A stretch of DNA of 40,003 bases from a virus: positions 1 to 40,003 of the IMG/VR virus record IMGVR_UViG_3300027872_000014, one strand, 5' to 3'. Of this stretch, positions 18,427 to 32,026 are shown one piece after another (the first letter of the stretch is position 1; each line of letters begins with the position of its first letter). Under the pieces are notes generated by a model that searched no databases, was not told where the DNA came from, and saw nothing but the letters and a program-made list of their open reading frames with translations. A program made the translations under genes and the position numbers.

Positions 18427-18501
18427 TGGTGCCGGGGACGGGAGTCGAACCCGTGACCTCCAGGTTATGAGCCTGGCAAGCTACCTCTGCTCTACCCCGG
18501 T
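18427..18501 (-). tRNA. tRNA with CAU anticodon (tRNA-Met, or Ile2)
   Basis: Folds as a complete cloverleaf. Acceptor strands ACCGGGG and CCCCGGC pair except for an A1-C72 mismatch. The D arm is GAGC...GCTT with GG in the loop. Anticodon stem CCAGG/CCTGG encloses CTCATAA, anticodon CAT. The T arm is ACGGG-TTCGACT-CCCGT. The CCA end is encoded (18429-18427). The anticodon stem lacks the three G-C pairs of initiator tRNA, so an elongator Met or lysidine-modified Ile tRNA is likelier. It lies between an HNH gene and the nuclease gene. Confidence 0.92.
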
Positions 18502-27953: not shown

Positions 27954-28736
27954 ATGCTTACCATTCCCAAGTGTGATCGGGATTCTATGGTCATTGTTAA
28001 GTCGGTTGCGGACCTTGAGGCTGTGCCTGTGACTCCCCGCGGAGCCCGCTCGGGCCGCTGGCAGGGCGTGAGGCATGCGGACTTTGTACGGGCGGCAGCG
28101 TCGGCCGTGCGCTCTCTGGGCTGGGAGATCGACAAGACGCACGCAATGCTGACGCGCAAGGGCGCGGGCCTTGTGGGCTCATTCGATATCTCGCCAGTAG
28201 ACGGGAGGGCACCCACAGCGGGCCGGTTTCCCGAGCACCTGCTCCGGACTATGCGCCCGTCTATTGGGTTTCGCCATGCGAACGACTCCGTCCATGCGTT
28301 GAACGTGTACTTCGGGGCCGTTGTGAAGGTCTGCTCAAACGGTTTGGTCTCGTCCTGCACGACGCAGGGGCAGCGTCGGAAGCACACGAGCGGGCTGGAC
28401 CTTTCCAGCTGGGTCCGTGACGCAGTCGGAGCCGCGTTTCGCCAAGGCGAGACTCTGGACGTCGACGTCGAGGCCATGCACCAGGCGCCGCTGGGAGTAG
28501 GCCCCTTGAATAACGCCCTCTGTGGTCTGGCTCGCATGGGCCTCATGCCCTGGTCTTTGGTCGGCAAGGTCGACCGCGAGTTTGCCAAACCGCGGCACCT
28601 GGACTTCGCCGACAAAAACGTCTGGTCCTGGTACAATTGCGTGACCGAGATCGCCAAGGAACAGGCGCCGGACGCGCAGTTCAAGACGCTCGACAGTGCC
28701 TGGGGGCTCGCCCGGGCGCTTGCGCAGCTCAATTAG
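27954..28736 (+). CDS. DUF932-like phage/plasmid protein
   Basis: 260 aa, ATG with GGAGG upstream. Middle and C-terminal motifs match the DUF932 family (also seen as TIGR03299-like): IGFRHANDSVHALNVYFGAVVKVCSNGLV, RRKHTSG, and the closing NVWSWYNCVTEIAKEQAP...SAWGLARALA. The family is common in phages, plasmids and conjugative elements close to replication genes. Some members are proposed to work with DNA metabolism, without a settled activity. Flanked by its own promoter upstream and a strong terminator downstream, so this pair forms a separate transcription unit. Confidence 0.75.
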   Translation: MLTIPKCDRDSMVIVKSVADLEAVPVTPRGARSGRWQGVRHADFVRAAASAVRSLGWEIDKTHAMLTRKGAGLVGSFDISPVDGRAPTAGRFPEHLLRTMRPSIGFRHANDSVHALNVYFGAVVKVCSNGLVSSCTTQGQRRKHTSGLDLSSWVRDAVGAAFRQGETLDVDVEAMHQAPLGVGPLNNALCGLARMGLMPWSLVGKVDREFAKPRHLDFADKNVWSWYNCVTEIAKEQAPDAQFKTLDSAWGLARALAQLN

Positions 28737-28747
28737 AGTCGGACCAT

Positions 28748-28780
28748 GGGCCGGTCGCATAGTAGCGGCCGGCCCTTTTT
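28748..28780 (+). terminator. Strong Rho-independent terminator
   Basis: GGGCCGGTCGC and GCGGCCGGCCC pair over 11 bp (one T-G pair) around a 6-nt loop, followed by TTTTT. Ends the DUF932 unit. Confidence 0.88.
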
Positions 28781-29009: not shown

Positions 29010-29033
29010 GACTCTAAACCTCCTCCGAGACAC

Positions 29034-29074
29034 GGCCCGGGCGGGACCATACTGCCGCTCGGGCCTGTCTTTTT
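29034..29074 (+). terminator. Terminator, first copy of tandem pair
   Basis: GGCCCGGGCGG and CCGCTCGGGCC pair over 11 bp (one G-T) around a 10-nt loop, followed by TGTCTTTTT. Lies in a 57-bp unit that is exactly repeated next to it. Confidence 0.85.
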
Positions 29075-29090
29075 GGGGTTGCGCAGCACC

Positions 29091-29131
29091 GGCCCGGGCG
29101 GGACCATACTGCCGCTCGGGCCTGTCTTTTT
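29091..29131 (+). terminator. Terminator, second copy of tandem pair
   Basis: Same hairpin and T-run as the copy 57 bp upstream. Two in series would insulate the downstream sugar genes from upstream transcription. Confidence 0.85.
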
Positions 29132-29194
29132 GGGGTTGCGCAGCACCGGTGGGGGCGGTACCATAGGGCTTTGGCTCAACAGGAGACAAGGCGC

Positions 29195-30058
29195 ATGAGA
29201 ATTGTTGTGACGGGGAGCGCGGGATATATCGGCTCGGACTTCGTGACGCACCTGCGGGACCAATACAGAGCGCGGTTTCAGGTGCTCGAGATCGACCTGG
29301 CCAGCAATGGGGAGGACGTTTCGAGTGTAGAGACTCGGAACAAGATAGAGGATTTCAAGCCGCAGATTATCTTCAACTTTGCTGGGATCTCCGGGGAGAA
29401 GGCCTGCCGGGAGCGGCCCCATGAAGCTTTCCTCACGGACTGCTTAGCGCCGTGGCGTCTGGCAGGACTGGGAGTTCCGCTGCTGGTGCAAGCCTCGACA
29501 CTGTCGATCCTCGACAAGGGGGACAGCCGGTACGCACGGTACAAGGGGAGTGCCGAGGTACACCTCGAGACAGCCGGGGTGCCCGTGTTATGCTTACGGT
29601 TTGGGACACTGCTCGGCTCGAGTGCAGCTGGTCCGGAGCACATGCGCTGGGACCTGCCGGTACACAAAATGGTGCTCGACGCGGTTACCCAAGGAGTGAT
29701 CACAATCCCGCGCGAGCCGCTCATGCGGCCGTGGCTGCTACTGGGCCACCTGCGGCGGGTGCTGGTGGGGGTAGCTCTGGATGCTGAGCGGAGTATCGTT
29801 CCGGCCGGGTTTACTCTGCAGCCGTTGGTGTCGTTTAACGCAAGCCTGGAACAAGTAGCTCGGCGCGTGGCGCGGCGTGTCCAATTAAAGACCGGGAAGC
29901 CGGTGACAATAGACTATGCGGTGGGGCACAAAGACCTCCGGAGCTACGCGTCGCCCGCGGTGTGCGGGACGACGCCGGGGCACTGTTCGCAGTGCGAACT
30001 CGAGTCAGTGGTCGAGGACTGTATCACATTGTATCGAACGGGCACTCTGGCAGACTGA
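29195..30058 (+). CDS. NAD-dependent epimerase/dehydratase (extended SDR), nucleotide-sugar type
   Basis: 287 aa from ATG at 29195 (AGGAG nine nt upstream); an in-frame start at 29171 lacks a ribosome site. NAD-binding GSAGYIG is at residues 7-13 (G7, G10, G13), followed by IIFNFAGISG, QAST, and the catalytic pair Y113-x-x-x-K117 in YARYKGSAEVHLE. This fits nucleotide-sugar epimerases, dehydratases or reductases. The C-terminus carries an unusual Cys group (AVCGTTPGHCSQCELE), a possible metal site not usual in this family. It is followed after 10 nt by a DegT-type aminotransferase, as in amino-sugar operons. Substrate cannot be read from sequence. Confidence 0.82.
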   Translation: MRIVVTGSAGYIGSDFVTHLRDQYRARFQVLEIDLASNGEDVSSVETRNKIEDFKPQIIFNFAGISGEKACRERPHEAFLTDCLAPWRLAGLGVPLLVQASTLSILDKGDSRYARYKGSAEVHLETAGVPVLCLRFGTLLGSSAAGPEHMRWDLPVHKMVLDAVTQGVITIPREPLMRPWLLLGHLRRVLVGVALDAERSIVPAGFTLQPLVSFNASLEQVARRVARRVQLKTGKPVTIDYAVGHKDLRSYASPAVCGTTPGHCSQCELESVVEDCITLYRTGTLAD

Positions 30059-30068
30059 AGAGGCTGAC

Positions 30069-31118
30069 ATGATACCACTGTTCAAGCCGCCCGTGCTCAC
30101 GGGCAAGTACATGAAGGAAGTGCTGAACTCGAGGCACCTGGTGACAGGGCCCATGGTCGAGAGACTGCGCGACGCGGTAGCGAAGGAGTTCCACTGGGAG
30201 CCGGAGCAGGTGGTGCTCGGGAACACTGCGACGCATTGCTTCGAGGCGCTGCTGATTCACTTGGGCTATCCTGAGGCCAAACTCTATCCGAGGGCTACGT
30301 GGCCTCTGATCCGGGTGAGGGTAGAAGGGGGGCCCAGCTGCGCTCCTACGACTGTATTGCTGACGGATATCGGGGGCGACACTGCATACGTACGCGATTT
30401 TCCAAACCGTAAAGTGGTGTTAGACTGCTCGCACAGCTGGGCCCCCCTTCTACCCTCACCCGGATCAGGGCCCAGCTGCGCTCCTACGACTGTATTGCTG
30501 ACGGATATCGGGGGCGACACTGCATACGTACGCGATTTTCCAAACCGTAAAGTGGTGTTAGACTGCTCGCACAGCTGGGAACCTTCAAAGGTCGCCGACT
30601 ACTCATTTGCGAGCTTCTCGCCGATCAAGTTGGTGTGTGGCCCTCAAGGTGGCGCCATGTTCTGCAAGAGTTCGGGCGCCGCTACAGAGCTGCAGACGAT
30701 TCTGAATTATGGGTTCGAGAGCGGGCCGCAGGGCGGGCGCGACTGGACCGCATGGGACGTGCGCGGGATCCGCGGCGGTATGAGCGACGTGCATGCTGCG
30801 CTGAACCTCGAGGCGCTCGGGCTGTTGGCCTGGGCACGACAGGGATATAGAGAAATAACACAGGCCGTAGCTGCCGATCTCTATGGTCGCCGCGGGGTCC
30901 GGAGTGATCAGATCCGGCGCGGCAAATACCTACTGCAGCTCAAGGTGCGATCGGTGCCGCGGGCGTTGAAGCAGCTGCGCGAGCTTGGGGTGCAGGGCGG
31001 CTGGCACTTTCCGCCAGCTAAGCTGTTGACCGTGCCGGCGTGGCCTGGTATGGTGGGACACGAAGTGTGTAAGGTCGGCCGCGCGGCGGCCAAGGTACTA
31101 CGAAGGGAATGGTCGTGA
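30069..31118 (+). CDS. DegT/DnrJ/EryC1 aminotransferase with internal duplication, possibly inactive
   Basis: 349 aa from ATG at 30069 (GAGG five nt upstream). It starts IPLFKPPVLTGKY and has VVLGNTATHCFEALL, as in DegT sugar aminotransferases. The PLP-ring Asp is in VVLDCSHSW and the Schiff-base Lys is K187 in SFSPIKLVCGPQGG. Residues 88-124 are repeated exactly at 134-170, so the PLP Asp appears twice (D119, D165), with a 9-residue insert between. Without the 46 extra residues the protein would be about 303 aa and read smoothly into EPSKVADYSFASFSPIK. The frame is kept, but the fold is probably damaged. Coupled downstream of the epimerase; both would make an amino-sugar nucleotide. Confidence 0.78.
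   Translation: MIPLFKPPVLTGKYMKEVLNSRHLVTGPMVERLRDAVAKEFHWEPEQVVLGNTATHCFEALLIHLGYPEAKLYPRATWPLIRVRVEGGPSCAPTTVLLTDIGGDTAYVRDFPNRKVVLDCSHSWAPLLPSPGSGPSCAPTTVLLTDIGGDTAYVRDFPNRKVVLDCSHSWEPSKVADYSFASFSPIKLVCGPQGGAMFCKSSGAATELQTILNYGFESGPQGGRDWTAWDVRGIRGGMSDVHAALNLEALGLLAWARQGYREITQAVAADLYGRRGVRSDQIRRGKYLLQLKVRSVPRALKQLRELGVQGGWHFPPAKLLTVPAWPGMVGHEVCKVGRAAAKVLRREWS
30307..30579 (+). repeat. Template-switch type rearrangement: direct repeat with inverted spacer
   Basis: 112 bp at 30,330-30,441 recur exactly at 30,468-30,579 (offset 138 bp). The 26-bp spacer 30,442-30,467 is the exact reverse complement of 30,307-30,332. Seen as an inverted repeat, arms 30,307-30,340 and 30,434-30,467 are perfect over 34 bp around a 93-nt loop. 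The underlying gene had an 8-bp inverted repeat (CCCAGCTG/CAGCTGGG) at the switch points. Confidence 0.95.
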
Positions 31119-32026
31119 GCAAGATTGATTTTCTCCGAGACAAGTTCAGCTTTTCGAAGCTGCAGCTCTTCTCGAAGTGCCCCCGGCGGGCATTCTACCG
31201 GTACGTGGCCCGCATGAAAGAGGACGTGAGCGAGCCGCTGCTCATGGGGCGCGGCACGCATGCCGGGCAGGAGTACGACAACCTCGAGCGGATCGAGGGG
31301 CGTCGTCCGCAGCAGGCCGAGGTGCTCGACGTGGCGACGGAGGCTTACGAGGGCGACGGCGGAGAAGCTGTCGACTCGTTCCGCGAGCAACACGAGACCC
31401 ACTTGAAGAAGTTCTGGGAGAGCGGGGAGCGCGACAAGATTCATCCGATCAAGGGCACGGTCGAGGCCGCGTTCCTGATCGAGGCGGCGGTGACTCACGA
31501 CCCGGAGAACGAGCCGGAGAAGAAGCCCGTGCTCCTCGAGGGGTTTGTTGACGTGGTGTCGAAGAGCGAGCCGGGGCTCCGGACCGTGGTTGACTACAAG
31601 ACCGTAGGTCGGCCCATGAGCCAGCGCGACGCGGAAAGCAGCAACCAGCTCGAGCTCTACCGGCTCGGCGGCAAGGCGAAGCTCGGCAAGTTCGTCTCGT
31701 TCGTGAAGGGTGGGAAGCAGAAGCCGACGACGAAGGTTACGCAGCCCTGCGCGACGACGAAAGCGCGGCTGCAGCGGCTGCTCACGTTCCTGTCGGATAC
31801 GATCAACGCGTTCCGGCGGTGCCTGCGGACCGGGGACTTTCCGAAGTGCGCGCCGGAGTGCTTCTGGTGCTCGCGCACGGCGTGTGGGTTCTACGACCAA
31901 TGCTACCCAGAGAAGGACAAGACGCTGCCGCGGTTTATTTCGATCGGGAAGATCAGTCCGCCGGGGACTGTGCCCGCGCCGGAGTGGAGGAAGCGAAAGG
32001 ACAAGAAAAAGGAGGCCAAGCCATGA
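31115..32026 (+). CDS. RecB-like PD-(D/E)XK nuclease with Cys cluster (Cas4/AddB style)
   Basis: 303 aa from GTG at 31115, which has GGGA six nt upstream and overlaps the previous stop (GTGA); an ATG at 31109 is too close to the ribosome site. Motifs: FSFSKLQLFSKCPRRAFYRYV, GRGTHAGQEYD (His of motif I), VLLEGFVDVV with catalytic Asp, VVDYKT with Asp-x-Lys, and SNQLELYRLGG (QxxxY). An N-terminal Cys in CPRR and a C-terminal group CAPECFWCSRTACGFYDQC could hold a 4Fe-4S cluster, as in Cas4 and AddB. Expected to degrade or trim DNA ends in recombination or replication. Long Lys-rich tail. Confidence 0.85.
   Translation: MSKIDFLRDKFSFSKLQLFSKCPRRAFYRYVARMKEDVSEPLLMGRGTHAGQEYDNLERIEGRRPQQAEVLDVATEAYEGDGGEAVDSFREQHETHLKKFWESGERDKIHPIKGTVEAAFLIEAAVTHDPENEPEKKPVLLEGFVDVVSKSEPGLRTVVDYKTVGRPMSQRDAESSNQLELYRLGGKAKLGKFVSFVKGGKQKPTTKVTQPCATTKARLQRLLTFLSDTINAFRRCLRTGDFPKCAPECFWCSRTACGFYDQCYPEKDKTLPRFISIGKISPPGTVPAPEWRKRKDKKKEAKP

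Follow-up and report, generated by a model that had tools for sequence, protein, structure and literature searches.

How does a gene come to contain an exact second copy of one of its own segments, joined to the first by a short stretch of its own opposite strand, and did such a structure originate during phage replication or during preparation of the DNA? The question is raised by a divergent DegT/DnrJ/EryC1-family aminotransferase-like gene (30069..31118, plus strand), which is 349 aa long as read and 303 aa long without a 138-nt insert. It lies on an uncultured phage contig that also carries genes for a family A-like DNA polymerase (phrog_17), a terminase, a portal and a capsid; the window, meaning the whole stretch of DNA that was analysed, comprises 40,003 bases and is the complete IMG/VR virus record. 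Upstream of the gene, an NAD-dependent epimerase/dehydratase-like gene (29171..30058, plus strand; PF01370, E=6e-7; phrog_540, E=1e-10) resembles nucleotide-sugar epimerases, while a PD-(D/E)XK nuclease gene (31109..32026, plus strand; PF12705, E=3e-19) follows downstream and overlaps its stop.

Anatomy of the insert and of the protein that carries it

Segment B, the first copy of a 112-nt direct repeat (30330..30441, plus strand), recurs on the same strand at 30468..30579 with all 112 nucleotides identical and a spacing of 138, exactly as the original prediction had described. The 26-nt spacer A' that separates the two copies (30442..30467, minus strand; CCCCCCTTCTACCCTCACCCGGATCA) matches 30307-30332 exactly in reverse complement. 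The exactness of this inversion had been predicted as well, but its source does not lie wholly before the first copy, since it comprises 23 nt in front of that copy and 3 nt inside it, within a run of G. The segment order is A-B-A'-B with exact copies, a layout that is a miniature tandem inversion duplication, and the insert is explained to the last base if B was copied twice and 30307-30332 once in reverse complement. The junction sequences of the inserted form are CACAGCTGGG/CCCCCC and GGATCA/GGGCCC, the slash marking the junction.

The longest exact inverted match measures 35 nt and decomposes into 8 nt of homology at the first switch point, the 26 nt of the spacer and 1 nt at the second. 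Its left arm (30306..30340) holds the source of A', and its right arm (30434..30468) was made by the event, the two forming a stem with a 93-nt loop. Within the left arm stands the 8-mer CCCAGCTG (30333..30340, plus strand), one arm of a pre-existing 8-bp inverted repeat. Its partner, CAGCTGGG, occurs at 30434 and again at 30572, the latter occurrence (30572..30579, plus strand) being in its original context, with AACC next. The RNA fold of 30290-30600 is strong (z=-7.5), which results from the event and does not speak for a function.

The encoded protein matches the PF01041 profile of DegT/DnrJ/EryC1/StrS aminotransferases with 37.6 bits against a cut-off of 19.8 (E=2e-9), a partial match that joins residues 174-323, in the C-terminal half, to profile positions 161-317 of 360; without the insert, the score over the same profile stretch is slightly better, at 38.3 bits. 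Candidate Asp and Lys motifs of the family can be recognised in the phage protein, which is compact once the insert is removed and very divergent, a BLAST-level homologue not having been found. A putative PLP-binding Lys187 lies in SFSPIK, which a weak alignment pairs with SFHAIK of the arnB-type PDB chain 8sng, and the putative PLP-contacting Asp119 and Asp165 both lie in LDCSHS, assigned by motif and weak alignment. Asp119 belongs to the first copy (VVLDCSHSW) and is the extra one, while Asp165, in the second copy, retains the normal spacing to Lys187. A single-sequence structure model (pLDDT 33) was too poor for checking the Asp/Lys site.

At the level of the reading frame, the insert amounts to 46 codons in frame, as had been claimed, and is free of stops. 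It adds a novel nine-residue linker, APLLPSPGS (residues 125-133), encoded by the inverted segment, together with the second copy ending in VVLDCSHSW, and joining the flanks in silico without the 138 nt keeps the reading frame and leaves its openness unchanged. The proposed duplication of a PLP-Asp-like segment in a DegT-family gene, placed ahead of the putative Lys187, is supported by a profile score above the cut-off, at low sequence similarity.

Two template switches as the probable source of the insert

The A-B-A'-B arrangement is best explained by two template switches. A polymerase would copy through B up to CAGCTGGG, ending at 30441, and its 3' end would then pair with CCCAGCTG at 30333-30340, about 94 bases back, either by self-priming in a hairpin or by switching to the opposite strand. 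Extension by 26 nt in opposite polarity would carry it to base 30307, after which the 3' end would jump back to 30330 with almost no homology and B would be copied again. A mirror-image course from the other side would be equally possible, and the order and direction of the steps are those we infer for the event. The ancestral allele would presumably have held a single copy.

In this contig, 8-nt inverted homology occurred at 9 of 400,000 random pairs of sites (~2e-5), and 0.5% of sites had any 8-nt inverted partner within 200 nt. Because eight complementary bases exactly at the junction are unexpected by chance, we regard the first switch as guided by the 8-bp inverted repeat. DNA folding of segment B revealed no stability above that of shuffled sequences (z about 0), so that the 8-bp arms are the sole evidence of guidance. 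The second switch has 1 nt of exact homology and an imperfect match at about 5 of 7 positions (TGGGCCC against TGGCCTC). Accordingly, the prediction that the switch points would fall on an 8-bp inverted repeat stands for the first switch and fails for the second, while the template-switch origin itself is borne out by a two-switch event that accounts for each base, with homology at its first step.

We searched for relatives of the DegT-like protein, with or without the insert, in viral_contigs and genome_contigs and found none, near-identical records being possibly absent from these collections. Searches of phages and plasmids likewise yielded no DegT-like relative, an exact search with the 26-mer returned no match in the collections searched, and the neighbouring nuclease, polymerase and capsid proteins used as queries led to no close phage relative. 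The epimerase query retrieved only a fragment match of 31%, lacking an adjoining DegT gene.

Several readings other than a recent two-switch event were weighed against these features. An old internal duplication, kept within the fold and later homogenised, would fit the common frame of the copies, but there is not one difference in 112 nt, silent sites included, the inverted spacer is exact over 26 nt too, the PF01041 match improves slightly when the insert is removed, and a two-copy homologue was not found in the searched collections; we consider this reading scarcely credible. The absence of differences is consistent with the original view that the event is very recent, although homogenisation of the repeats or an in-vitro origin would look identical. 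The original prediction had also entertained a phase-variation-like switch, and a regulated or recurrent coming and going of the 138-nt unit could draw on the 112-nt direct repeats flanking the hairpin, deletion between which would in principle bring back the short form exactly, as well as on a second exact and recent duplication 1.2 kb upstream. However, both states share one frame and would provide no on/off switch, neither a recombinase site nor an invertible segment could be identified, a second state was not found, and exact copies suit one recent event, which leaves phase variation very improbable and that claim unsupported.

An assembly error, the last possibility raised originally, has to be split. 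A pure mis-join by the assembler, with no underlying molecule, draws some plausibility from the contig being a metagenome assembly (IMG/VR), and yet we hold it to be very doubtful, as the junctions share 8 and 1 nt, far below the k-mers of assemblers. Since overlaps of this size are too short for a k-mer assembler to bridge, a physical molecule with these junctions probably existed. In its wider sense, as a chimera of library preparation or amplification, the claim survives as a tentative alternative, considered below.

Phage replication or preparation in vitro

Whether it took place in the phage or in the test tube, the event is a known kind of copying accident. We judge a natural origin slightly more likely than an amplification or library origin and put at about 0.5 the probability of a natural event during phage replication, that is, of a recent mutation in the sampled phage, perhaps carried by a minority; we likewise lean towards the enzyme with the insert being impaired. 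Against a natural origin, a hairpin flanked by 112-bp direct repeats is expected to lack stability in vivo, 46 additional residues in front of the active-site Lys would probably damage the enzyme, and no relative or second assembly in the searched collections displays either the empty or the inserted site. In favour of it, the insert sits within the contig, flanked on either side by correctly reading gene sequence, and it is in frame and open, a modest factor given that 26% of simulated events of the same type were so without selection.

Control sequence bears on the same point. In 241 other IMG/VR loci (2.14 Mb), there was no interior perfect local inverted repeat of at least 26 nt, and the two foldbacks of at least 26 nt that did occur both lie at contig base 1, where single-switch library artefacts should fall, which again favours a natural origin for the interior insert. 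One of them, in IMGVR_UViG_3300028590_000142 (L114), is a 26-nt foldback (L114:1-124) around tRNA-like sequence, primed from the acceptor stem and with 72 nt between its arms, and is probably a library artefact at the contig end. The other, in IMGVR_UViG_3300047393_000118 (L082), is a foldback of 35 nt, bases L082:1-58 forming a perfect 58-nt palindrome that is probably a foldback at the contig end as well. A single A-B-A'-B pattern was present in the controls, a far smaller one (L048:4654-4740) with 20-nt repeats, located in a run of iterated GCAGAATCTGCACCCC units in both orientations, and within the 40-kb window the only other exact repeat of at least 18 nt is a 57-bp tandem at 29033. The phage case is thus unusual in size but of a kind already known.

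The polymerase of the phage provides a further argument. T7 gp5 polymerase is a family A enzyme. Short inverted repeats are sites at which the wild-type T7 replisome, with its strongly 3'-exonucleolytic polymerase, changes templates (PMC9484634), and a natural origin is favoured by the fact that this phage encodes a family A-like polymerase of its own.

The same two-switch molecule could have been made in vitro, as a whole-genome amplification chimera or, during library preparation, by a hairpin fragment priming its own fill-in, and then been expanded by the assembler, a reading that we consider a possible though somewhat less probable source. Chimeras of multiple displacement amplification (MDA) are inverted in 85% of cases and for the most part local, their priming taking place where short stretches are complementary, with 2-21 nt of homology in most phi29/MDA inverted chimeras and 0-1 nt in the others (PMC1855051), and sonicated libraries yield chimeric reads at inverted repeats (PMC10908179). 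Additionally, the control foldbacks that open L114 and L082 indicate that such molecules do reach IMG/VR contigs, and the end of A' coincides with the position expected from a fragment end at 30307. Because the path re-enters the assembled segment B, even a scarce molecule might be written out as a loop by an assembler using k <112. On the other hand, a single foldback would merely terminate a contig, whereas the molecule seen here needs a second, nearly homology-free switch, and its in-frame, open outcome would arise by chance about one time in four.

Should the natural reading hold, the locus would be an unusually clean phage record of a double template switch, with all junctions readable and the protein frame intact, and would illustrate that one slip in copying is enough to double a segment of the active site in a single step. 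A wider proposition, which we regard as unlikely, is that the allele persists stably in the phage population and that phage polymerases regularly make micro-scale tandem inversion duplications at 8-bp inverted repeats, through which accessory enzymes of phages would gain in-frame internal duplications that have so far gone uncounted. If the insert is an artefact, it would warn that such loops occur inside virus contigs and mimic coding sequence, and a simple A-B-A'-B scan could flag them.

Relation to known rearrangements and the surrounding sequence

Tandem inversion duplications of Salmonella, DUP-TRP/INV-DUP rearrangements and the inverted triplications of yeast and human share with the phage locus the forward-inverted-forward order and a first junction at a short inverted repeat that was already present. 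Known examples of these rearrangements measure kilobases or longer and are often selected as amplifications, whereas the phage case inverts 26 nt (35 with the homology) and duplicates 112 nt. Origin-dependent inverted-repeat amplification (ODIRA) requires an included origin (PMC4689423), and none has been demonstrated within the phage duplication.

Quasipalindrome template-switch mutations, described in E. coli and T4 and captured by the four-point model of Loytynoja and Goldman, share a local switch in opposite polarity, guided by an inverted repeat and followed by a return. Mechanistically, the phage event would be of this quasipalindrome kind. The usual outcome of such mutations is a corrected palindrome arm or an inverted spacer only a few bases long, whereas the phage molecule returns to a point upstream of where it departed, which results in the 112-nt direct duplication. 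In yeast genes, protein changes through template switching involve mostly one or two residues (PMC8604942). Chimeras of phi29/MDA and of the T7 replisome, as well as library hairpin artefacts, follow the same chemistry, in which a short inverted repeat allows a 3' end to prime (PMC1855051, PMC9484634, PMC10908179), but they mostly make one switch and end as a foldback, in contrast to the two switches of the phage molecule.

The sequence around the aminotransferase-like gene holds further elements. The 57-bp unit is present as two identical, exact tandem copies (29033-29149), a second recent duplication 1.2 kb upstream of the A-B-A'-B site, and a degenerate, partial third copy stands ahead of the epimerase gene (region 29033-29165). 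Each unit contains a G+C hairpin (CGGCCCGGGCGG...CCGCTCGGGCC) followed by TCTTTTT, a terminator-like element. A strong intrinsic-terminator-like hairpin of 11 pairs with a TTTTT tail lies at 28748-28780, 3' of the ORF 27954-28736, and a tRNA-Met (CAT) gene occupies 18427-18501 on the minus strand.
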